A stretch of 22,226 bases of DNA from Clostridiales bacterium. GTDB taxonomy: Bacteria > Bacillota_A > Clostridia > Oscillospirales > Oscillospiraceae. Below the pieces are notes generated by a model. The model saw nothing but the letters and a program-made list of their open reading frames with translations. It did no database searches and was not told the origin of the DNA. The position numbers and the translations under genes were made by a program. Location of the stretch: assembly GCA_019417795.1 (NCBI GenBank), contig DXUR01000011.1, positions 1 to 22,226 of the forward strand. Reading direction: 5' to 3'. This document shows positions 5,388 through 19,830 of the stretch, piece after piece; position 1 is the first letter of the stretch; every line of letters starts with the position of its first letter.

Positions 5388-5856
5388 CATCATCATGTGC
5401 TGCAAGGGGCATTGCAAACTCGCGGGTGAAAATGCTCCGCCGTTGGAGGCTATCGCTGTATACATGAGCGCTGAGTGCGCTTGCCCGAAGGAAGACTACA
5501 CCGGAAAGCTGATGGAGACGATTTTGAGAGAGGCGCTGTTTGATTATATGGCAGGCGCGGACAAGCCTGGATATGAGCTGCGCCAGCTTCTTCAGCAATA
5601 TGCCACACACGACCCCGATCTTTCGGAGCGTATCTACACCCTATTCCAGTTAGCCCGAGTGAGAGACGATAACGGGTATATCAATGGGTTTACGGATGAA
5701 CTGCTCCGGCAAAGTGAGATTGATCTTGGAACCTCCAGAGACAGTATGCCCTGTCTTTTGGATGAAAAGAAGATCGTCAACTATCCTTGTTCTCGCGCCT
5801 GCCCGCTTTTTGGAGACTGCGTTACAAAGTGGTATCAGGTAAGAAAAAGAGCCTGA
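5368..5856 (+). CDS. Cysteine-rich hypothetical protein, 162 aa
   Basis: ATG 5368 follows AGAGGAGG inside the end of the upstream gene. The N terminus has a cysteine-dense stretch (MEQRTCNIIMCCKGHCKLAG) with two more cysteines in ECACPK. The C terminus has a second cluster (PCLLDEKKIVNYPC, then SRACPLFGDC). Two separated clusters of this kind usually bind zinc or an iron-sulfur centre, but no specific family is evident. It ends just before the second riboswitch-like leader and closes the first gene run. Confidence 0.65.
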   Translation: MEQRTCNIIMCCKGHCKLAGENAPPLEAIAVYMSAECACPKEDYTGKLMETILREALFDYMAGADKPGYELRQLLQQYATHDPDLSERIYTLFQLARVRDDNGYINGFTDELLRQSEIDLGTSRDSMPCLLDEKKIVNYPCSRACPLFGDCVTKWYQVRKRA

Positions 5857-11829: not shown

Positions 11830-12135
11830 ATGAGATCCCGTAAAAACGCCGTCCCCGTACCTGTCACCCGCGATCTCCTGCAGGAAAAGCAGACTGAGGT
11901 TGCTCGTCTGGCTCGTCAGGCAAGCGAGGCGGTAGACATCGTTACCAGAACGATGAATGAGCTGGAAGGTATCAACCAGCAGATTGACAACGACTTGGCT
12001 GAAATCGATGCCTATTCCAAGGAACTGGCCGCAACACGCGCCGCCATGTCCCAGCAGAGGAAGAACAATACCGCTATCATCGCCAACTTCGCAAAGCTCC
12101 TGGACACCAGCCCCGCAGAGAGCGTGAGTGAGTAA
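11830..12135 (+). CDS. Small coiled-coil protein, 101 aa
   Basis: ATG 11830 is 8 nt after AGAGGAG; the in-frame GTG at 11821 touches the ribosome site and is less likely. After a basic N terminus (MRSRKNAVPVPVTRD), residues 15-85 are almost wholly helical with heptad-like spacing (QEKQTEVARLARQASEAVDI, then MNELEGINQQIDNDLAEI). This predicts a coiled coil. No domain is recognised. It is the last protein gene before the tRNA cluster. Confidence 0.7.
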   Translation: MRSRKNAVPVPVTRDLLQEKQTEVARLARQASEAVDIVTRTMNELEGINQQIDNDLAEIDAYSKELAATRAAMSQQRKNNTAIIANFAKLLDTSPAESVSE

Positions 12136-12159: not shown

Positions 12160-12220
12160 ATGAGGCGCTAACAGCAATTTTACAACAATCAAACTTTTAC
12201 TTTGACTCAATGCGTCTCGT
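12160..12220 (+). repeat. tRNA-insert RNA element, permuted stand-alone copy 1
   Basis: GAGGCGC (12162-12168) pairs with GCGTCTC (12212-12218). Between them lie TAACAGCAAT (12169-12178), a possible arm TCAAA-CTTTTAC-TTTGA (5 bp, 7-nt loop) and CAAT just before the closing strand. These conserved segments flank the stem in the opposite order to the tRNA inserts, so the hairpin is opened and the element is circularly permuted. Part of it (ACAGCAATTTTAC and AACTTTT) also matches the tRNA-Cys copy, so a degenerate tRNA remnant is the alternative. Confidence 0.5.
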
Positions 12221-12230
12221 TGAAAAGCGT

Positions 12231-12321
12231 GGAGGGGTAATCCTAACTGGTAAGGAAACAGTTTGCTAAACTGTTAGTAACCCGCAAGGGTGTGTGGGTT
12301 CGAGTCCCATCCCCTCCGCCA
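12231..12321 (+). tRNA. tRNA-Ser(GCU), intact
   Basis: The acceptor GGAGGGG pairs with CCCCTCC, followed by G73 and an encoded CCA. The anticodon arm ACAGT-TTGCTAA-ACTGT carries GCT (12265-12267). A long variable arm typical of serine tRNA and a TTCGAGT T-loop are present. This is the only tRNA in the cluster with no insertion and serves as an internal control. Confidence 0.93.
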
Positions 12322-12365
12322 AGCCGCAATAGCGGCGAACTCTTTATCACCTCCTCTCTCTGACG

Positions 12366-12379
12366 GCGGGAAAGACCGC
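12366..12379 (+). repeat. GAAAGA-loop hairpin, copy 1
   Basis: GCGG-GAAAGA-CCGC is preceded by TGACG (12361-12365). Copies at 12385 and 13512 keep the loop and the TGACG prefix while the stem bases change with pairing retained, which indicates conserved RNA structure. Confidence 0.6.
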
Positions 12380-12384
12380 TGACG

Positions 12385-12400
12385 GCTCGGAAAGACGGGC
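12385..12400 (+). repeat. GAAAGA-loop hairpin, copy 2, just upstream of tRNA-Cys
   Basis: GCTCG-GAAAGA-CGGGC (one G-U pair) is preceded by TGACG. It ends about 5 nt before the interrupted tRNA-Cys, the same spacing as copy 3 before tRNA-Gly. A role in 5' processing of the tRNA precursor is possible. Confidence 0.6.
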
Positions 12401-12404
12401 GACA

Positions 12405-12516
12405 TGGGAGCGTCCGGTGGCAGCTTATAACGTGTAATCGACGGTGGACACGCACAGCAATTTTACCTTGAAAGTCTGCAAAACTTTTGCTTACGGTTCG
12501 ACTCCGTAGCTCCTAA
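12405..12516 (+). tRNA. tRNA-Cys(GCA) interrupted 5' of the anticodon arm
   Basis: The anticodon arm AAAGT-CTGCAAA-ACTTT (12471-12487), which is tRNA-Cys-like, the T-arm TACGG-TTCGACT-CCGTA and an acceptor TGGGAGC/GCTCCTA are all recognisable. About 40 extra bases lie between acceptor and anticodon arm, including the insert hairpin CGTGT/ACACG and CACAGCAA. The D-arm cannot be resolved and is where the insert appears to sit. No CCA is encoded. A non-functional tRNA is possible, but the intact T and anticodon arms argue for use. Confidence 0.6.
12431..12466 (+). repeat. tRNA-insert RNA element in tRNA-Cys
   Basis: The hairpin CGTGT (12431-12435) / ACACG (12448-12452) is followed by CACAGCAATTTTAC. 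The exact limits within the D-arm region are not determined. The 3' motif is the same as in the other copies; the stem sequence is different but fully paired. Confidence 0.5.
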
Positions 12517-12723
12517 AAAAAACCGTCATCAATCTATAAGAAGGGTCGTGTGTGTCATGAAGAAGTTCCTGACTATCGTTCTGTGATTCAAAGTGATCGG
12601 CGACAGCGGCGTCCAGCGCCGGGTATGTGGAGGAAACCATGAATAGAACACGAGACAAGCCCTAAGTCATCTTCGGATGACAGTACAGTAATGAATGTGA
12701 CGATGAATGGACAGTAACGAATT
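12517..12723 (+). other. Structured spacer without a gene
   Basis: This stretch separates tRNA-Cys from the next element. It contains a CGGCG-TCCAG-CGCCG hairpin (12607-12621) and a GTCATC-TTCG-GATGAC hairpin (12666-12681). A tiny ORF with a good ribosome site (GGAGG, ATG 12639, 8 codons) is also present. No tRNA T-arm, terminator U-run or protein-coding frame of normal length is present. It may be part of a long structured precursor RNA. Confidence 0.4.
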
Positions 12724-12779
12724 GGGGCACTAACAGCAACCATCAACATTACCTGCTTGTGGAAATGAGAATGTGTCCC
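12724..12779 (+). repeat. tRNA-insert RNA element, permuted stand-alone copy 2
   Basis: GGGGCAC (12724-12730) pairs over 7 bp (one G-U) with GTGTCCC (12773-12779). TAACAGCAAC follows the 5' strand directly and GAAT precedes the 3' strand, the same arrangement as 12160-12220 with different stem bases. The interior (12741-12770) can form an imperfect CCA-CAA/TTG-TGG hairpin. There is no tRNA domain inside. Confidence 0.5.
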
Positions 12780-12821
12780 GCACACGTGGCAAAGAGCCAT
12801 TTTACGGATATAGCGGTTTCT

Positions 12822-12885
12822 GGGAGGTTTCCGTATTCGTATGCGTACAGAGCAACGCAGACAGCAATGAAAAAGCCTCCCACCA
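12822..12885 (+). ncRNA. 64-nt mini-tRNA-like RNA: acceptor stem plus insert element, ending in CCA
   Basis: GGGAGGT (12822-12828) pairs over 7 bp with GCCTCCC (12875-12881) and is followed by A and CCA, exactly like a tRNA acceptor end. Instead of D, anticodon and T arms, the interior holds the insert core: TATGCGT, loop ACAGAGCA, ACGCA and GACAGCAAT. It ends one base before tRNA-Pro. It could be a decoy, a processing intermediate mimic or a degenerate tRNA. I know of no described class like this. Confidence 0.5.
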
Positions 12886-12886
12886 T

Positions 12887-13011
12887 GCAAGGATAGCTCA
12901 GTTGGTAGAGCACCAGTATAAAAAAATGCGTAACGTTCCCCTCCCCCAGTTGCGCTAACAGCTATGTAAAAAGGGAACTGATTGTCGTGGGTTCGAGTCC
13001 CACTCCTTGTA
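12887..13011 (+). tRNA. tRNA-Pro-like (NGG, probably AGG) interrupted in the anticodon loop
   Basis: Acceptor GCAAGGA/TCCTTGT, D-arm GCTC-AGTTGGTA-GAGC and T-arm GTGGG-TTCGAGT-CCCAC are all canonical. The anticodon stem halves CCAGT (12913-12917) and ACTGA (12977-12981) pair at four of five positions. The 3' half supplies GGGA before the stem, as in proline tRNAs. Removing about 52 nt near position 34/35 gives a 7-base loop ATAGGGA. The exact junction is ambiguous because it lies in A-runs. No CCA is encoded. The Pro identity is inferred from the spliced anticodon. Confidence 0.7.
12921..12972 (+). repeat. tRNA-insert RNA element in tRNA-Pro
   Basis: A short A-run and AAT precede GCGTAAC (12928-12934), which pairs over 7 bp (one T-G) with GTTGCGC (12949-12955). 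A 14-nt C-rich loop lies between. TAACAGCTATG follows, a one-base variant of the shared TAACAGCAA. The limits are fixed only to within a few A residues. Confidence 0.65.
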
Positions 13012-13057
13012 ACAAGCTACTTAGTGTAGTCACAAAAAAAGGAGGTGCAATAGACTA

Positions 13058-13225
13058 ATGTTGAATATGGGTTTGCTTGTCTGTTGTTCCTTGCCGTATG
13101 TCATTATCTCGACCCCGATAATTTACAGTACGGTGAAAACCTGGTTCGCCGCCAGCCATAATAGTGCGGGAAGCCGAACCGATCGGTATAACTGTTTGCC
13201 GTATTATACGGCTGGGTTTGAGTAG
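13058..13225 (+). CDS. Small membrane protein inside the tRNA cluster, 55 aa
   Basis: AAAGGAGG (13038-13045) lies 12 nt before ATG 13058, and 55 codons follow to TAG. The N terminus (MGLLVCCSLPYVIISTPIIY) is hydrophobic enough for one membrane span or a signal-like segment; the C-terminal half is polar with several tyrosines. No family is recognised. Its position between two interrupted tRNAs, with its own ribosome site, suggests it is translated from the tRNA precursor or a nested mRNA. Confidence 0.55.
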   Translation: MLNMGLLVCCSLPYVIISTPIIYSTVKTWFAASHNSAGSRTDRYNCLPYYTAGFE

Positions 13226-13255
13226 AAAATGCACATAAGAGGGGTCATGCAAATA

Positions 13256-13273
13256 GCCCCGCTACGGCGGGGC
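13256..13273 (+). other. Stable hairpin immediately upstream of tRNA-Asn
   Basis: GCCCCGC-TACG-GCGGGGC forms a 7-bp stem with a UACG tetraloop and ends 4 nt before the tRNA. A hairpin at the same distance precedes tRNA-Cys and tRNA-Gly, though those have the GAAAGA loop. Confidence 0.6.
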
Positions 13274-13277
13274 GTAC

Positions 13278-13393
13278 GCCAGGGTAGCTCAGTTGGTAGA
13301 GCGCGTACTAATGCGTATCTTGTTGAGACGCTTACAGCAACTTTCTATGGACTGTTAATCCCGTGGTCGTGGGTTCAAGTCCCACCCCTGGCA
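13278..13393 (+). tRNA. tRNA-Asn(GTT) interrupted in the 5' anticodon stem
   Basis: Acceptor GCCAGGG/CCCTGGC, D-arm GCTC-AGTTGGTA-GAGC, T-arm GTGGG-TTCAAGT-CCCAC and anticodon loop CTGTTAA are all present. The 3' anticodon stem TCCCG needs CGGGA on the 5' side. CG lies at 13304-13305 and GGA at 13349-13351, separated by 43 nt. Removing exactly 13306-13348 gives a perfect five-pair stem. The junction falls between positions 28 and 29, not in the anticodon loop. A73 is present and no CCA is encoded. This is the clearest interrupted copy. Confidence 0.8.
13306..13348 (+). repeat. tRNA-insert RNA element in tRNA-Asn (43 nt)
   Basis: TACTAAT leads into GCGTATC / GAGACGC (13313-13319 with 13325-13331; six pairs and one A-G mismatch) around the loop TTGTT. 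TTACAGCAAC and TTTCTAT follow. The limits are fixed by restoration of the tRNA stem. The hairpin has the same 7-5-7 layout as the tRNA-Gly copy. Confidence 0.8.
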
Positions 13394-13511
13394 CAAGCAG
13401 AAGCCGTCCCTGCTAATGGGCGGATAGGCATAGGGCTTTGGGATCGTTTATGTCTATGCTGACGGTAAACGCCAGATATTCAACCCAAATATCTTGAACT
13501 GGGTTGTGACG
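13394..13511 (+). other. Structured spacer between tRNA-Asn and tRNA-Gly
   Basis: No coding frame or tRNA is visible. It contains CAACCCA/TGGGTTG (13481-13487 with 13500-13506), a perfect 7-bp hairpin, directly followed by the TGACG and GAAAGA-loop hairpin at 13512. It also holds a possible GCATAG/CTATGC pairing. Confidence 0.4.
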
Positions 13512-13527
13512 GCTCGGAAAGACGAGC
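13512..13527 (+). repeat. GAAAGA-loop hairpin, copy 3, just upstream of tRNA-Gly
   Basis: GCTCG-GAAAGA-CGAGC is preceded by TGACG (13507-13511) and ends 5 nt before the tRNA. Relative to copy 2 a G-U pair becomes A-U, so pairing is maintained. Confidence 0.6.
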
Positions 13528-13532
13528 TTCAT

Positions 13533-13656
13533 GCGGCAGTGGTGAAGTGGTCAACACAGCAGCCCTATTACAATGCGAAACGAGGAGTTCCGCTAACAGC
13601 AATGTTCAAGGAAACCAAGCTGCCATTCGTAGGTTCGAGTCCTACCTGCCGCTCCA
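13533..13656 (+). tRNA. tRNA-Gly (probably TCC) interrupted in the anticodon loop
   Basis: Acceptor GCGGCAG/CTGCCGC is followed by T73 and an encoded CCA, typical of glycine tRNA. D-stem GTG/CAC, anticodon stem GCAGC/GCTGC and T-arm GTAGG-TTCGAGT-CCTAC are all intact. The loop is split: CCT (13564-13566) and CCAA (13615-13618) are separated by 48 nt. Joining them gives CCTCCAA with anticodon TCC but an unusual C33, so the junction may differ by a few bases. The site (about 34/35) matches that in tRNA-Pro. Confidence 0.78.
13567..13614 (+). repeat. tRNA-insert RNA element in tRNA-Gly (about 48 nt)
   Basis: ATTACAAT precedes GCGAAAC (13575-13581), which pairs with GTTCCGC (13587-13593), one A-C mismatch, around the loop GAGGA. 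TAACAGCAATG follows. The 7-5-7 hairpin matches the tRNA-Asn copy, with base pairs changed on both sides. Confidence 0.72.
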
Positions 13657-13663
13657 TTTCTCT

Positions 13664-13699
13664 GGGCACAAACAGCAATAGTAAATAAAAGGTGTGTCC
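13664..13699 (+). repeat. tRNA-insert-like element, permuted stand-alone copy 3 (weak)
   Basis: GGGCACA (13664-13670) pairs with TGTGTCC (13693-13699) over 7 bp including one G-U. AACAGCAAT follows the 5' strand directly. The AAT usually found before the 3' strand is absent. It lies in the leader of the TROVE-like gene, 30 nt before its start, so it could regulate that gene. Confidence 0.4.
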
Positions 13700-13729: not shown

Positions 13730-15286
13730 ATGAGCAACTTTATGGATGGAATCAAGAGCACGCTGAATAACGAGTGCAATGTCTCTGTCACCGAGAACGG
13801 TGCAGTCGGCTTCCGTACTACCGGCAAGGCTCTCCTGGATCTCAATTTCGCTGTGGCATCTCTCCGTAGTGCCAGCGAACACGACATCTCTCAGCGCTTC
13901 ACCAAGGCGTTCTTCGAGGACAAGCTGATGGCAATGAAATGGCTCTTTTATGCTCGTGATGTCCGTGGTGGCCTGGGTGAGCGTCGGCTGTTCCGTGCCT
14001 GCATGGTGCCTCTGGCGAAGGAGTTTCCCGAGTACGTCGCCCCTGTGGTGGCACTGGTGCCTGAGTACGGTCGTTGGGACGATCTGTGGTGTCTGCTGGA
14101 TACTCCTGCGTGTGACTGCGTGACCGGTCTGGTCAAAGGGCAGCTTTATGACGACACCCAAAATGCGGCAGAGGGCAAGTCTATTTCTCTTCTGGCAAAG
14201 TGGATGCCTCGCTGTAAGACTTCTTCCAAGCAGACCCGGCATTATGCCCAGATCTTGCGGAAGGCTGTCGGCATGACCGAGCGCCAGTATCAGCATACCC
14301 TCGCCAATCTCTCCCGTTACCTGCTTGTTGTGGAGCAGCAGATGACCGCCAAGCAGTGGGAGGAAATCGACTATCAGCGTGTTCCCTCTCGTGCCAACCT
14401 GCAGTACAACAGCGCTTTCCTCCGTCACGACGAGGATCGCCGACGTGCATTCCTGGGTGCTGTGGAGAAAGGCGAGGCCAAGATCAACGCTTCTGTTCTC
14501 TTCCCGCATGACATCGTACATCGGTACGGTTATGCCGACAGCACCGACACCAATCTGGAAGTGCTGTGGAAGAACCTCCCCGATACGGTGCAGGGCTGTG
14601 GTAACACCATCGTGGTGGCCGACGGTTCTGGTAGTATGAGAGTGAGAGTCGGCAACACTGATGTGTCTGCGCTGGAAGTAGCAAACTCTCTGGCGATCTA
14701 CTTCGCCGAGCGTTCTTCCGGTCAGTTCAAGGATCAGTACATCACCTTCTCTGAACATCCTCAGCTGGTCGATTTGAGCAGAGGCAAGAACCTTCGTGAG
14801 AAACTGCGGATCGCGGCTACCCATAACGAGGTTGCCAACACCAACATCGAGGCCGTATTCGACCTGATCCTCACTACGGCGATCAACAAGCACATGGATC
14901 AGAGCGATCTTCCCGCGAACATCCTTATCATCTCTGATATGGAGTTCGATGGTTGTGCAACCACCGGCGCAATCTCCCGTGATAGGTGGGGATATAGCAG
15001 AGTGGTCACTCCTACTCCCCGCCTGTTTGAGGTAATCGCCCAGCAGTATGCGGAAGCCGGGTATCAGATCCCCCGTCTGGTATTCTGGAATGTCAACTCC
15101 CGTAGCGGCACCATTCCTGTTAAGGAGAACAATCTGGGCGTTGCGTTGGTCAGCGGTTTCTCCCCCAATATCGCCAAGATGGTGATGAGCGGCCAGACTG
15201 ATCCTTATGACTGCCTGTTGGAGGCCATCAACGCGGAGCGGTATCAGCAGGTGGACGATGCCCTTCGTCCTATTATCTCCGCATAA
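13730..15286 (+). CDS. TROVE-like/vWA protein (DUF2828 family, Ro60-related architecture), 518 aa
   Basis: ATG 13730 follows AGGAGG. Residues 1-280 match the helical-repeat TROVE-like region of DUF2828 proteins (LKDVRGG-type word YARDVRGGLGERRLFRA near 78-93, then PEYGRWDDLW). Residues about 290-490 form a von Willebrand A domain with the metal site DGSGS (about 298-302) and a later ISDMEFDG. Ro60 proteins bind misfolded RNAs and tRNA-like Y RNAs and, in some bacteria, sit in RNA-repair operons. The gene lies between structured interrupted tRNAs and an RNA repair set, so I infer an RNA-binding scaffold role. Family recognition is from memory. Confidence 0.8.
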   Translation: MSNFMDGIKSTLNNECNVSVTENGAVGFRTTGKALLDLNFAVASLRSASEHDISQRFTKAFFEDKLMAMKWLFYARDVRGGLGERRLFRACMVPLAKEFPEYVAPVVALVPEYGRWDDLWCLLDTPACDCVTGLVKGQLYDDTQNAAEGKSISLLAKWMPRCKTSSKQTRHYAQILRKAVGMTERQYQHTLANLSRYLLVVEQQMTAKQWEEIDYQRVPSRANLQYNSAFLRHDEDRRRAFLGAVEKGEAKINASVLFPHDIVHRYGYADSTDTNLEVLWKNLPDTVQGCGNTIVVADGSGSMRVRVGNTDVSALEVANSLAIYFAERSSGQFKDQYITFSEHPQLVDLSRGKNLREKLRIAATHNEVANTNIEAVFDLILTTAINKHMDQSDLPANILIISDMEFDGCATTGAISRDRWGYSRVVTPTPRLFEVIAQQYAEAGYQIPRLVFWNVNSRSGTIPVKENNLGVALVSGFSPNIAKMVMSGQTDPYDCLLEAINAERYQQVDDALRPIISA

Positions 15287-15363: not shown

Positions 15364-15378
15364 AAAGGAGTGAAATAC

Positions 15379-16536
15379 GTGGTATATCTCGACAATGCTG
15401 CCAATGCTCCGGTTTTCCCGGAGGTTCTGGAAGCTATGCTCCCTTGGCTCCGACCCGATCATGTAGGCAACCCCGGAAGCCTCCATACCCAAGGTGTCAA
15501 AGCTCGTGAAGCTGTTGAAAATGCCCGCCGCCAGGTCGCCAAAATGATTGGTGCCGATCCCTCAGAGGTGTTCTTTACCTCTGGTGGCACAGAGTCGAAC
15601 AATGCGTGGTTGCAAAACTTTGGCGGCGACTTGATTTTAACAACTGTTCTGGAACACGATTCGGTTCTGGAACCTATGTCTGCGCACTGTCATCGCCATT
15701 ATATCAAAGTCCACAAAGATGGTAGCATAGATCTAAATGACCTGGAACGTTTTTTATCGGATGCCCATACTGCTGAGTCTAACTATTTACCTCGTGATGG
15801 ACGTTCGACGGCTGTTTCTATCATGTGGGTAAATAATGAGCTGGGCACTGTCAATCCTATGAAAGAAATCGGAACCCTTTGCAAAAGGTATCATGCCGTA
15901 TTCCATGCCGATGCTGTGCAGGCGGCAGGCCATGTGAATATGAACGTGAAGGACTGCGGAATTGACTTCTGCTCTATGTCCGGTCATAAGTTCGGTGCTC
16001 CTCTGGGTGTTGGTGTGCTTTATATCAGCAATTCTATCCGCAAATCCCCGTGGATTATCGGTGGAGGCCAGGAAAACGGAATGCGTGGTGGTACCGAGAA
16101 CGTTCCGGGAATTGTAGGAATCGGCAAAGCAGCAGAAATCGTTACTGAACGCCTCCAGAACTGGAAGCTACGGTGGGGATTGCTCAGAGATACATTCTTA
16201 ACTGATTTGGGGTTAAGAATGCCTGGGGAGTTCTATATCAACGGTGATAACGAGGACTATTCTTCTAACATCATCAGCCTGACCATCCCTGGTGTCAACA
16301 GTGAATCTCTGCTTCTTCTGTTGGATCAGCTGGATATCTACCTTTCTGCTGGTTCTGCGTGCAGTGCTGCCAGTGCTAAATCCTCCCACGTTTTGCGTGG
16401 CATTGGAATGTCTGATGAAGATGCGGCCTGCACTGTGCGTATCTCAATGGGATTCGATACCACTGTTGATGATATGCGAGAAGCAGCAGAGACTATTGCG
16501 GAGGTCTCTTATAAGCTGAAATCTATGTATTCTTAA
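15379..16536 (+). CDS. Cysteine desulfurase (NifS/IscS-like), 385 aa
   Basis: GTG 15379 lies 8 nt after AAAGGAG (15364-15370); the GTG at 15370 overlaps that site. This PLP enzyme transfers sulfur from cysteine to a carrier. PLP-site words include YLDNAANAP at the N terminus, HADAVQAAGH (about 176-185) and SGHKFGAPLG with the Schiff-base lysine at about K204. The persulfide cysteine is at about C328 in SAGSACSAAS. Length and order are normal for NifS/IscS. It lies between the TROVE-like and RNA ligase genes, so sulfur may go to tRNA thiolation. A CysH-like PP-loop protein at 20409 is a possible partner, as in phosphorothioate or thionucleoside pathways. Confidence 0.93.
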   Translation: MVYLDNAANAPVFPEVLEAMLPWLRPDHVGNPGSLHTQGVKAREAVENARRQVAKMIGADPSEVFFTSGGTESNNAWLQNFGGDLILTTVLEHDSVLEPMSAHCHRHYIKVHKDGSIDLNDLERFLSDAHTAESNYLPRDGRSTAVSIMWVNNELGTVNPMKEIGTLCKRYHAVFHADAVQAAGHVNMNVKDCGIDFCSMSGHKFGAPLGVGVLYISNSIRKSPWIIGGGQENGMRGGTENVPGIVGIGKAAEIVTERLQNWKLRWGLLRDTFLTDLGLRMPGEFYINGDNEDYSSNIISLTIPGVNSESLLLLLDQLDIYLSAGSACSAASAKSSHVLRGIGMSDEDAACTVRISMGFDTTVDDMREAAETIAEVSYKLKSMYS

Positions 16537-16548: not shown

Positions 16549-16571
16549 TAAATTAACAAGGAGTGAATATA

Positions 16572-17972
16572 ATGTACTGTGCCTATGTTACCAGGATTCA
16601 TAATCTGAGGAAGCATACCAACGCCGACCGGCTGCTCTGTGGCGAATGCTTCGGCAATACGGTGATTGTGGATCTCGGCACCGACCCCGATCAGCTGGGC
16701 GTGTACTTCCCTACCGATGGCAAACTCGGTTTGGAGTTCGCACAGAAGAATGACCTGCTGCGGCGCAAGGATGAGAACGGTGCTCCGGCTGGCGGATACC
16801 TTGACCCGGAGAAGCGGAATATTAAGGCCCTCAAGCTCCGGGGCGAGAAGAGCGACGGCCTGTTCCTCCCTCTCTCCTGTTTGGCTTCTTTTACCGATAT
16901 CAAGAAGCTCCAAGAGGGTGACACGATCTCTGTGTTGAACGGCATCACTATCTGCGAGAAGTACGTACCCGCCGTCAAACGTTCCTTCGGTAGTGGGGGG
17001 GGTGGTAATCGTGTTCGTAAGCGTTCTGATCCTATCTCCCCGCTCTTCCAAGAACACGCTGACACGGAGCAGTTGGCCTACAACCTCTCCGCATTCCATG
17101 CCGGAGATCTGGTAGAAGTTACCCTGAAAATGCACGGAACTTCTCAGCGTACCGGCTATCTGCCTGTATTGCAGGGCTACAAATATCGGAACGGTATGGA
17201 AAAGCGGCTCTATGAGAGTCGCAAGACCCCGAACGTGATTCGTTCCAAGATCAAGCGGGTACCCATCTATGACTGGGGCTACGTTACCGGAACCCGCCGC
17301 GTGGTTCTGGATACCTTCGATGAGGGAGGTTTCTACGGCAATAACGCTTTCCGCGAGAAACACGCCAAGGTCTTTGAAGGAAAGCTCCACAAGGGAGAGA
17401 CGGTCTACTACGAGGTTGTTGGATTCACTGACGATGGTGCGCCCATCATGAATCCCGGAAACAACTCTAAGCTGAACGACAAGGAGTTTACCAAACAGTA
17501 CGGTAAAACCACCACATTCAGCTATGGCTGTGCTCCCGATGGCAAGGAACATCCCAAGTCCGATCTTTTTGTTTACCGCATGACGATGACCAACGAAGAC
17601 GGCGATGTAGTGGAGTATCCACCCGACTTTATGCGCTATCGTTGCGAACAGATGGGCGTCAAATATGTCCAGGTGTTTTGCCGCACTATCATCCCGGACT
17701 TCTACCAGCTCCCCGACGATGTTGGATCTCCGCAGGCAGTGAACGCCGGCGAGTATGTGAAGAAGCTGGCTGAGGATTTCTACGACGGCCCCGATCCTGT
17801 CGGTCATACCCATGTCCGGGAAGGTGTTGTGTGCCGCATTGTCAACCGTCCCAAGTTCGCCGCCTATAAGCATAAAAACTTTGCATTCAAGGCGCTGGAG
17901 GGGCTGATCAAAGACACCGCCGCCGCGCCTGATATGGAAGAAGCTCAGGATGTTGGAGAACAGAATGGATGA
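16572..17972 (+). CDS. RNA ligase, DRB0094/Rnl5-like, 466 aa
   Basis: ATG 16572 is 8 nt after AAGGAG. This nucleotidyltransferase-fold ligase forms an enzyme-AMP intermediate and seals RNA 3'-OH and 5'-phosphate ends. Motif I is KMHG with the nucleophile at about K186; motif III VYYEVVG at about E281; motif IV REGVV at about E417; motif V YKHKNFAFK at about K433/K435. Residues 1-150 form an N-terminal extension with an OB-like character, as in the Deinococcus RNA ligase. A Gly-rich linker coded by a G8 run (16995-17002) separates the two parts. It is followed directly by RlaP and kinase-HD genes, a recognised RNA repair grouping. Confidence 0.88.
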   Translation: MYCAYVTRIHNLRKHTNADRLLCGECFGNTVIVDLGTDPDQLGVYFPTDGKLGLEFAQKNDLLRRKDENGAPAGGYLDPEKRNIKALKLRGEKSDGLFLPLSCLASFTDIKKLQEGDTISVLNGITICEKYVPAVKRSFGSGGGGNRVRKRSDPISPLFQEHADTEQLAYNLSAFHAGDLVEVTLKMHGTSQRTGYLPVLQGYKYRNGMEKRLYESRKTPNVIRSKIKRVPIYDWGYVTGTRRVVLDTFDEGGFYGNNAFREKHAKVFEGKLHKGETVYYEVVGFTDDGAPIMNPGNNSKLNDKEFTKQYGKTTTFSYGCAPDGKEHPKSDLFVYRMTMTNEDGDVVEYPPDFMRYRCEQMGVKYVQVFCRTIIPDFYQLPDDVGSPQAVNAGEYVKKLAEDFYDGPDPVGHTHVREGVVCRIVNRPKFAAYKHKNFAFKALEGLIKDTAAAPDMEEAQDVGEQNG

Positions 17973-18084
17973 AAAGTCGTTCTTGACTTTATCAACAACT
18001 TCAAAGCTGGGCAGATATGGAGCAGTTCGACTCAAGCCTATACCGGAGAATGATCCGGGATTGTATCAAAAAGGAGCGATATGA
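17965..18084 (+). CDS. Small overlapping ORF, 39 aa
   Basis: ATG 17965 lies 6 nt after GGAG and overlaps the ligase stop. Its TGA overlaps the ATG of the next gene at 18081. The 39 residues (MDEKSFLTLSTTSKLGRYGA...) are polar with no motif. The double overlap and ribosome site suggest it is translated, either as a true peptide or to couple ligase and nucleotidyltransferase translation. There is no independent support. Confidence 0.4.
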   Translation: MDEKSFLTLSTTSKLGRYGAVRLKPIPENDPGLYQKGAI

Positions 18085-18914
18085 CGATGACGACTTTGAT
18101 CCAGAATGAGCAGAAGCGCCAGAAGATTATGGCGCGGATGCGGGAACATCTGGTGCCCGTCTTGGAGCATTGCAGGGGAGGCTGGGTTGGCCTCTTCCTG
18201 CAAGGTTCTCAGAATTATAACCTTGACTATGAGGGTAGCGATATTGACACCAAGGCAATCATGTTGCCCAGCTTTTCCGATTTCGTGTTGAACGCCAAAC
18301 CTCTCAGCACTACCCACATTATGGAGAATAACGAACACGTGGATTTCAAAGACATCCGCCTCATGTTTGACTGTATCAAGAAGCAGAATGTCAACTTTGT
18401 TGAGATCCTGTTCACCCCTTACTCCATCATCAACCCGGAGTATGCCGATCTTTTCCAGCCTGTTCTGGACGCTCGTGAAGAGATTGCCCGATACAACAAC
18501 TACGCCGGGATGAACTGCATTATGGGTATGGCTCTGGAAAAGCAAAAGGCAATGGAGCACCCCTACCCTGCCACAATGGACAAGATTGAGGCATTTGGGT
18601 ATGACCCGAAGCAGCTTCACCATGCTCTGCGGCTGCGGGAGTTTATGACCCGTTACGAAGCCGGCGAGCCTTACGCTGACTGTCTTATCAGTAACCAGTG
18701 TGATTATCTCAAAGAGGTGAAGCGCGGTTGCTACTCTTTGAAAGAAGCACGGGCACTGATGAGCACTGCAATTCAATCTATGACCGAAGACAAAAAGCGC
18801 TATATGGATACGGTGCCTGTTTCGATCAACCAGCACACCAATGAGGTACTGCAAAAGGCTACCGTTGAAATTCTCAAACGATCCTTCTTAAAGGAAATCC
18901 AAGGAGGAGAATGA
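18081..18914 (+). CDS. rlaP: RlaP-type DNA polymerase beta superfamily nucleotidyltransferase (RNA repair), 277 aa
   Basis: The catalytic signature GSQNYNL (42-48) with SDID (53-56) is that of the Pol-beta nucleotidyltransferase fold, and the word order matches the RlaP family predicted to act in RNA repair. The start may be ATG 18081 or ATG 18087, which both follow AAGGAG at 18071-18076. The rest is helical. The gene lies between an RNA ligase and a polynucleotide kinase-HD gene, with 1 nt to the latter, so the three form one operon. The reaction is unproven; adding or healing 3' nucleotides at breaks is the usual proposal. Confidence 0.8.
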   Translation: MTMTTLIQNEQKRQKIMARMREHLVPVLEHCRGGWVGLFLQGSQNYNLDYEGSDIDTKAIMLPSFSDFVLNAKPLSTTHIMENNEHVDFKDIRLMFDCIKKQNVNFVEILFTPYSIINPEYADLFQPVLDAREEIARYNNYAGMNCIMGMALEKQKAMEHPYPATMDKIEAFGYDPKQLHHALRLREFMTRYEAGEPYADCLISNQCDYLKEVKRGCYSLKEARALMSTAIQSMTEDKKRYMDTVPVSINQHTNEVLQKATVEILKRSFLKEIQGGE

Positions 18915-18915
18915 G

Positions 18916-19830
18916 ATGCCGATGTTTTACATGATGGTTGGCCTTCCTGGTAGCGGGAAGTCATTCACTGCCGAAAGCATCCCTAACGCCGTCGTCCACT
19001 CCAGCGATGCGATCCGTGCCGAAGTTCTTGGTGACGAGAACGACCAAACCCAACAGGACTTGGTTTTCCAAACCCTTCACAAAAGGGTTTTGCAGGATCT
19101 GGTGGATGGCAAGGATGTGGTGTACGACGCAACCAATATCAACTACAAGCGCCGTATCGGATTCCTTGATCGTGTCCGAGCGCTCCACAAACATGATTTG
19201 CGCACAGTATGTCTTTTCATGGCGACGCCCTATGAGGTGTGTTTGGAGCGCAACAATAATCGGGAACGTTCTGTCCCGGAGTCTGTAATCCAAAAGATGT
19301 ACTTCAAATTCGATGTTCCCATGATGGCGGAGGGTTGGGATGAAATCAGGATCGTGGGTGACGAAGATCGCCACGACCAGATTGATACCCTTATGCTTCG
19401 TCTCTCCAAGCTGGAACATGATAACCCGCACCATGAGTACACGGTTGGTCAGCACTCTATGACGGCATGGCAGTATCTGATCAGCCACTATAAAGGTGCC
19501 GATGCTGCTCTGCTCCGCGCCACGCTGTTGCACGATATTGGCAAAGAGAAGACTAAAGTATTTCATGACATCAAAGGCAACCCCACTGAGATCGCCCACT
19601 TCTATCATCATGAGCGTGTAGGAGCTTATGACAGCTTCTGCTATACCGGCGATCTCAGTCCTAACCAGCGCCTTACTGTGGCGCTGCTGATCCGCTGGCA
19701 TATGTGGCCGTATGCGGTTGAAAAGTCAGATAATCCGAGTAAGACGGTTAGCAAAATCAAACGTCTGCTTGGTAATGATATCTGGAACCAGGTCATGGTG
19801 TTGAACGCCTGTGACCGCAATGCACACTGA
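18916..19830 (+). CDS. Polynucleotide kinase-HD phosphohydrolase fusion (RNA end healing), 304 aa
   Basis: The start follows AAGGAGGAGAATGAG with 1 nt from the upstream stop. Residues 1-150 are a P-loop kinase (GLPGSGKS at 9-16, then SSDAIR and a VVYDATN strand) like T4-type polynucleotide kinases. Residues about 175-300 are an HD domain: H180, HD at 206-207 in LLHDIGKEK and HHER at 231-234. A 5'-kinase plus an HD phosphatase or cyclic phosphodiesterase would convert 2',3'-cyclic phosphate and 5'-OH ends into ligatable ends. That is what a cleaved tRNA needs before the ligase encoded two genes upstream can seal it. Confidence 0.88.
   Translation: MPMFYMMVGLPGSGKSFTAESIPNAVVHSSDAIRAEVLGDENDQTQQDLVFQTLHKRVLQDLVDGKDVVYDATNINYKRRIGFLDRVRALHKHDLRTVCLFMATPYEVCLERNNNRERSVPESVIQKMYFKFDVPMMAEGWDEIRIVGDEDRHDQIDTLMLRLSKLEHDNPHHEYTVGQHSMTAWQYLISHYKGADAALLRATLLHDIGKEKTKVFHDIKGNPTEIAHFYHHERVGAYDSFCYTGDLSPNQRLTVALLIRWHMWPYAVEKSDNPSKTVSKIKRLLGNDIWNQVMVLNACDRNAH

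Follow-up and report, generated by a model that had tools for sequence, protein, structure and literature searches.

What are the short inserts that interrupt the phage tRNA genes on contig DXUR01000011.1 (Clostridiales bacterium, assembly GCA_019417795.1), and are they removed from the transcripts? The window, i.e., the whole stretch of 22,226 nucleotides (nt) analyzed here, holds one intact tRNA-Ser and four interrupted tRNA-like genes (Cys, Pro, Asn, and Gly) between an open reading frame (ORF) ending at 12135 and one starting at 13730. An earlier note on this DNA described the inserts, which are 43–52 nt in length, as one family of structured RNAs that fits no described class. In our analysis, the inserts were identified as copies of a conserved stem element, which clusters around, and mostly co-occurs with, the gene of a predicted Ro60-fold protein. 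The element is likely the docking site of this phage Ro60-like protein and the tRNAs carrying it are predicted to be unspliced, tRNA-shaped Y RNAs, a reading to which we assign a probability of about 0.6.

The motif ACAGCWA was found 13 times in the window compared to 5.25 expected occurrences, a number reached in 0 of 100 shuffles. Eight of these matches are located on the + strand from 12171 to 13678, and eight element copies span positions 12162–13699, which upholds the claim of one family. The consensus consists of usually AAY, a stem of 7–8 bp with variable sequence, NN, and ACWGCAA; in the window, ACAGC(A/T)A follows the 3′ arm of the stem after 2–3 bases and the 5′ arm is usually preceded by AAY. 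Two strand orders were distinguished. The R order (five of the eight window copies) is AAY - arm - loop - arm - NN - ACAGCAA, where a short loop closes the stem and the tRNA that carries it, on its anticodon stem, anticodon loop or D loop, has ordinary ends. The P order (the remaining three) is arm - NN - ACAGCAA - enclosed sequence - AAY or similar - arm and represents a circular permutation of R, since the same two strands pair, but across an enclosed RNA. Here, the far end of the stem is left open, and the RNA that it surrounds is an anticodon arm, a permuted tRNA whose acceptor stem is capped, or other sequence. P1 encloses a single anticodon-arm-like hairpin at 12189–12205 (TCAAA-CTTTTAC-TTTGA, Lys UUU-like), while P3 lies directly upstream of the Ro-like gene and ends 30 nt before it. 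The permuted order of three of the copies and the location of one in a non-tRNA hairpin (Table 1) had been missed by the earlier note; the other four sit inside the tRNA-like genes.

In these four genes the insertion points differ as had been stated, being located in the D region, the anticodon stem, and the anticodon loop. ARAGORN reported only the tRNA-Ser in the window and none of the interrupted genes. For the Cys-like gene, no match to Rfam up to E 5 was obtained in the window search either; its acceptor stem, T arm, and anticodon arm AAAGT-CTGCAAA-ACTTT are recognizable when read from the sequence. Omitting the insert of tRNA-Asn yields the perfect anticodon arm CGGGA-CTGTTAA-TCCCG, exactly as the note had predicted. 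For Pro, for which it expected a plausible loop, the arm obtained has four of five stem pairs and a loop with U33 and the anticodon AGG; the Gly-like gene, of which it expected the same, retains ACCAA and has no U33. In counterparts of the Cys-like gene in three other loci (L015, L039, and L075), a GGA (Ser) anticodon loop was read by eye, and the inner hairpin loop of the D-region element (GTGTAATCGACGGTGGACAC in the window) is similar among them.

Table 1. Positions of the element copies, tRNA genes and neighboring protein genes in the window.
Feature	Position	Strand	Motif position	Description	Basis
P1	12162–12218	+	12171	arm GAGGCGC (12162–12168), TA-ACAGCAA, enclosed hairpin, AAT, arm GCGTCTC (12212–12218)	
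tRNA-Ser (GCT)	12231–12318	+		intact, without insert	Rfam tRNA model, ARAGORN
tRNA-Cys-like gene (GCA)	12405–12515	+		element in D region	read from sequence
Element in Cys-like gene	12429–12460	+		AAC-GTGT...ACAC-GC-ACAGCAA	
P2	12724–12779	+	12733	arm GGGGCAC, TA-ACAGCAA ... AAT, arm GTGTCCC	
R-order element	12840–12867	+	12861	inside non-tRNA hairpin	partly read from sequence
tRNA-Pro	12887–13011	+		insert after U33 (about 12920–12971)	Rfam tRNA model with long insertion
Element in tRNA-Pro	12925–12964	+		motif ACAGCTA	
tRNA-Asn (GTT)	13278–13393	+		insert 13306–13348 between positions 28 and 29	Rfam tRNA model
Element in tRNA-Asn	13310–13340	+			
tRNA-Gly-like gene	13533–13653	+		insert in anticodon loop	Rfam tRNA model with long insertion
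Element in Gly-like gene	13572–13602	+			
P3	13664–13699	+	13672	stem GGGCACA/TGTGTCC with 1 mismatch; GGT replaces AAY	read by eye
Predicted Ro60-fold protein	13730–15286	+		DUF2828 + DUF7788, phrog_850; predicted element binder	
RNA ligase	16563–17972	+		phrog_968	
Nucleotidyltransferase	18081–18914	+		phrog_388	
AAA_33 kinase + HD domain	18916–19830	+		polynucleotide-kinase-like, predicted end-healing enzyme	

The element is not confined to the window. Among 13 loci encoding relatives of the Ro-like protein, six (L001–L005 and L008) carry R and P elements and L009 carries P, while in L010–L013 two motif copies and no stem were found. In these relatives, the inserts interrupt tRNAs for Lys, Thr, Pro, Asn, and Gly, and one lies in a D loop (L003, 9659–9776). 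Scans using the RNA pattern only added further loci in sets of 65 (45 of them with fewer than two elements), 26, and 88 stretches. The last set was derived from viral contigs using a D arm, ACWGCAA, and T loop pattern, which gave only 2 stretches with the motif reversed. In the genome scan, L137 was the sole locus with at least two elements among the matches listed. P-like matches amounted to 296 from 123 loci of the fetched DNA, where about 75 are expected by chance as judged from three scrambled motifs, and to 181 at a stricter score (about 22 by chance).

The sequence of the stem was found to be free, with GYG/CRC in the clade of the window, ATATCTT/AAGATAT in L211, and TGGTAC/GTACCA in a Campylobacter phage. 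The earlier observation that the stems vary and yet stay paired was confirmed using 59 tRNAs with an internal ACWGCAA, for which a hairpin was not required. A 7/7 stem 1–3 nt before the motif was identified in 42 of them compared to a mean of 3.1 (maximum 10) in shuffled sequences, and at least 6 of 7 pairs were found in 56 (shuffles: mean 24, maximum 35). This is the unbiased test, since the tables of stem pairs are biased by the pairing required for inclusion (pairs 1–3 for R stems, all pairs for P stems).

The product of the gene following P3 is predicted to adopt the Ro60 fold, a helical-repeat ring with a vWA domain, according to a structural model. Across 28 loci, near-identical pairs included, the motif density is 1.87/kb near Ro-like genes and 0.29/kb elsewhere, i.e., six times denser. 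Among contigs found by the RNA pattern alone, a Ro-like gene is present in 21 of 25 and in 36 of 50 R-type records, compared to 0 of 21 contigs with chance matches, which were hand-picked from the 45 scan loci with fewer than two elements. Two further loci from those 45 were inspected, of which L055, later found to be R-type, has a Ro-like gene and L066 does not. All these counts refer to phrog_850 matches with an E-value below 1e-25, a cut-off chosen because phrog_850 matched 6 of 14 known genomes in a control at E 0.001. In two phages the Ro-like gene contains in-frame TGA codons (11 in G070, locus L268; 14 in G094, locus L292), suggesting that these phages read TGA as an amino acid.

Y RNAs are known as tRNA mimics. 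Short P enclosures of 25–65 nt contain an anticodon-arm hairpin in 94 of 196 cases (shuffled: mean 22, maximum 35), with UUU (Lys) being the most common anticodon (21 of 94). In 27 P-like matches, the enclosed RNA is a circularly permuted tRNA that starts with the T arm and the acceptor 3′ strand and continues through a linker to the acceptor 5′ strand and the D arm. The linker, which caps the acceptor stem, is 1–15 nt in length with a median of 6 nt, and 17 of the 27 linkers are between 1 and 6 nt. A tRNA-Phe in L210 is seen by ARAGORN only if the P-enclosed RNA is treated as a circle, while one P of L039 encloses a tRNA-Ile that is also seen in linear order.

Bacterial YrlA has been described as consisting of two parts, a terminal stem to which the Ro homologue Rsr is tethered and a tRNA-like domain that resembles the acceptor, D, and T arms (PMC8394870). 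The Rfam model YrlA (“Y RNA-like”, RF02553) matches permuted-tRNA P elements in L228 (two, E 9e-8 and 3e-4), L229, L237, L242, and L268; no match was found at the P elements of L218, L219, L223, and L284. As in YrlA, the P stem is formed from two ends, the 27 permuted matches in relatives show the module order T arm, capped acceptor stem, D arm, and the gene lies next to a Ro-family gene, as P3 does. Unlike YrlA, many phage forms keep the anticodon arm and the short forms hold that arm only. The tRNA-like plan itself is not found in P1–P3 of the window, of which P1 holds only its anticodon-arm-like hairpin. The R forms differ further in being non-permuted with ordinary tRNA ends. The P elements look like new, diverged Y RNAs, and we infer that the interrupted tRNAs represent a novel type of Y RNA without permutation. 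In contrast to the statement that no described class fits, both strand orders, the association with the Ro-like gene, the capped permuted tRNAs, and the weak YrlA matches point to Ro-binding Y RNA modules.

By analogy to the binding of Y RNAs by Ro60/Rsr, the ring of the Ro-like protein would hold the stem of the element. The R-type tRNAs would stay whole, with the tRNA part serving as bait or adaptor (scaffold or decoy). As the weakest step of the proposal, the particle might take part in tRNA repair together with the kinase and the RNA ligase of the phage, or act as a sink for host anticodon nucleases.

Several results weigh against the Ro-binding interpretation. The DUF2828 protein has no TROVE match in Pfam; a PDB profile search links DUF2828 and TROVE only at E 0.2, so that sequence alone does not join them, and vWA_Ro60 matches only weakly, in 6 of 24 members. 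Fourteen of the 50 R-type records have no full Ro-like gene, including contigs of 129, 133, 171, and 308 kb, and no TROVE was found in these 14 records. Conversely, 13 of the 22 other records of the 88-stretch scan, which were not classified as R by the finder, do contain a Ro-like gene, so that either the finder or the pattern does not divide the records cleanly. The motif is absent near the Ro-like gene at L006, L007, L227, and L233. All YrlA matches at P elements score 35–48 bits and thus below the Rfam gathering score of 69, the model matches nothing in the window at E-values up to 5, and the stem region of the YrlA consensus lacks the ACAGCAA of the phage NN-ACWGCAA/AAY stem. Finally, the complete and diverse anticodon arms obtained from many R tRNAs minus their insert, and the preference of one RNA ligase type for R carriers, both detailed below, are not accounted for if the mimics stay unspliced or would be expected from splicing, respectively.

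Splicing is accordingly the alternative to be weighed most carefully. The inserts would be true introns, cut by a hairpin-guided nuclease, perhaps with the Ro-like protein, whereupon a kinase/HD enzyme and an RNA ligase would heal and join the ends to give functional tRNAs; a P element would then represent a permuted intron that surrounds a permuted tRNA gene or a single anticodon arm. We regard this as possible but unlikely. A fuller version appears slightly more doubtful, in which the Ro-like protein recognizes the hairpin intron, a nuclease cuts, kinase and ligase join, and the tRNAs are inactive and thereby safe from host anticodon nucleases until the repair machinery is present. The strongest support comes from the R set, which comprises 85 non-identical R-type tRNAs from 68 loci, all of them with a T arm and six or more acceptor pairs. 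Minus the insert, 56 of the 85 have a perfect 5-bp anticodon stem with U33, whereas swapping the 5′ parts gives a mean of 16 and a maximum of 24. In these 56 the insert is mostly located after position 28 or 29. Insertions at this place were counted as 47 or 41 depending on the direction of tie-breaking. The tRNAs split at these positions show nine pair combinations at 27-28/42-43 (8 Watson-Crick, 1 wobble), and it therefore appears that the anticodon stem is maintained despite the insert within it. The six Gly copies, from the window and five relatives, retain CCAA, and CCA is encoded by 11 of the 85 R tRNAs, although the lower share compared to intact tRNAs (101 of 301) is suggestive only. 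At least one RNA-ligase match (PF09414, phrog_968 or RtcB) was detected in 20 of 27 hand-picked R-carrying contigs of at least 94 kb, and the window-type ligase is more common in R carriers (11 of 16) than in P-only carriers (2 of 15; manual sorting, one weak match excluded), as splicing would predict. Ligase and R form thus go together, which kinship may explain. Support for reading the inserts as introns is partial: the other 29 of the 85 have no canonical arm at any cut tried, and the six Gly copies lack U33. No consistent intron-end pairing or splice-site consensus was seen by eye, and seven of the 27 contigs have no match to the three ligase families. For 9 of 56 R anticodons, an intact tRNA with the identical anticodon is present in the same fetched locus, an ambiguous count given partial loci, and at least these R tRNAs may therefore not be needed for decoding. 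Splicing is less favored because of these non-canonical loops and because the lone anticodon arms and the permuted tRNAs with their short caps have no evident functional spliced product. Permuted-intron splicing had been the initial working idea and was demoted to a rival because the Ro-like gene was the best linked of three genes tried and the acceptor stems of the permuted tRNAs are capped. If splicing were true, it would constitute a new, protein-driven intron class in bacterial viruses, outside archaea and eukaryotes.

A mobile or self-cleaving element, such as a tiny ribozyme invading tRNA genes, is improbable. Circular permutation is typical of small ribozymes, and both the two permutations of a small core and the several insertion points in tRNAs would agree with such an origin. 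However, no Rfam ribozyme matched in the window, in L001–L005 or in 11 further loci, the window copies differ from each other in stem and loop and are not recent copies, and the tie to the Ro-like gene would be left unexplained. That the genes are decayed tRNAs with chance similarity, the outcome named in the earlier note as refuting, is hardly credible. Some copies do have poor anticodon arms, but motif, stem, and placement recur across many phages, and both the reversed-motif scan (88 vs. 2) and the stem shuffles contradict this explanation.

Other interrupted or permuted tRNAs were compared as well. Group I introns are found in phage or bacterial tRNAs, where they split the anticodon arm. 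They are longer than 200 nt and have a conserved core, unlike the inserts described here, which had been judged not to be group I introns and indeed have no match to an Rfam group I model. Circularly permuted tRNA genes of algae and archaea have the 3′ half before the 5′ half and mature via BHB splicing and a circular RNA (PMC3978253). The P-enclosed tRNAs share the leading 3′ half; in contrast, a Ro-type stem closes the RNA here and many acceptor stems are capped by a few nucleotides. “Enigmatic” tRNA introns were described for Lak megaphages (PMC6784885), which also carry a Ro-like gene in Lak-A1, -A2, and -B9. An identity with the present element is not supported, as three examined of four interrupted tRNAs (ARAGORN, 300 of 542 kb of Lak-A1) contain no ACWGCAA, and the introns of these three are therefore something else or a diverged form. 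The pattern search of Lak-A1 gave no more matches than the motif-reversed control; two P-like elements near 110.7 kb were seen by eye.

In Listeria phage LP-039, which we take to belong to the same P100-like group as Listeria phage CKA15, three P elements are located within 330 bp upstream of the DUF2828 gene. In CKA15, highly transcribed non-coding regions up to 2 kb upstream of the Rsr-like gene CKA15_055 are suspected to contain Y RNAs, and Y RNAs were found bioinformatically in mycobacteriophages (PMC12282133). In the passages considered of this report, no such motif is given, the RNAs are not identified, and no tRNA-embedded form is mentioned (PMC12282133). No description of tRNAs carrying a Ro-binding hairpin was found in searches of an open-licence literature library.

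Reading the inserts as Y RNA modules would account for interrupted phage tRNAs of a kind that has been puzzling. The stem, NN, ACWGCAA, AAY motif would allow phage Y RNAs to be found by sequence and suggests what the abundant, unexplained RNAs of phages such as CKA15 may be. We know of no clearly established route leading from tRNAs to Y RNAs; a Ro-type hairpin within tRNA genes, beside permuted versions in one genome, would provide natural candidate intermediates. Phage tRNA clusters, Ro-like proteins, and RNA ligases would also be tied into one testable RNA-repair module.

Ro/TROVE proteins were described as RNA-repair platforms with a tRNA-like partner and noted in a few jumbo phages (PMC7824862), and for YrlA, competitive inhibition of an anticodon nuclease was proposed as a possible role (PMC7790460). 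In contrast to Ro60/Rsr, which are TROVE proteins, the window protein belongs to the DUF2828/DUF7788 sequence family. Replacement of DUF2828 by a TROVE protein was considered and rejected (0 of 17 records). The window encodes further predicted RNA-repair enzymes downstream (Table 1), with a class-V aminotransferase (cysteine desulfurase-like) at 15370–16536 between the Ro-like and the RNA ligase genes. In G063 and G092 the RNA ligase gene adjoins the Ro-like gene, whereas in G005 (the L005 contig, 63118–64505) it is split into two pieces, the first of which contains a TAA.

The non-tRNA hairpin around the R-order element of the window (12822–12881, GGGAGG...CCTCCC) has a counterpart at 8738 in L001 and is possibly a further small RNA. 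A gene of Synechococcus phage B23 annotated as “tRNA-Undet” (MN695335; L230, 4357–4466) was identified as an R-type tRNA with anticodon TCG and the ACTGCAA variant. A GOLLD RNA is located at 5821–6266 of L198, whose contig also has P-like elements, and phage tmRNA genes were found within tRNA clusters with P or R elements in L071 (7363–7678, − strand) and L284 (1032–1310).

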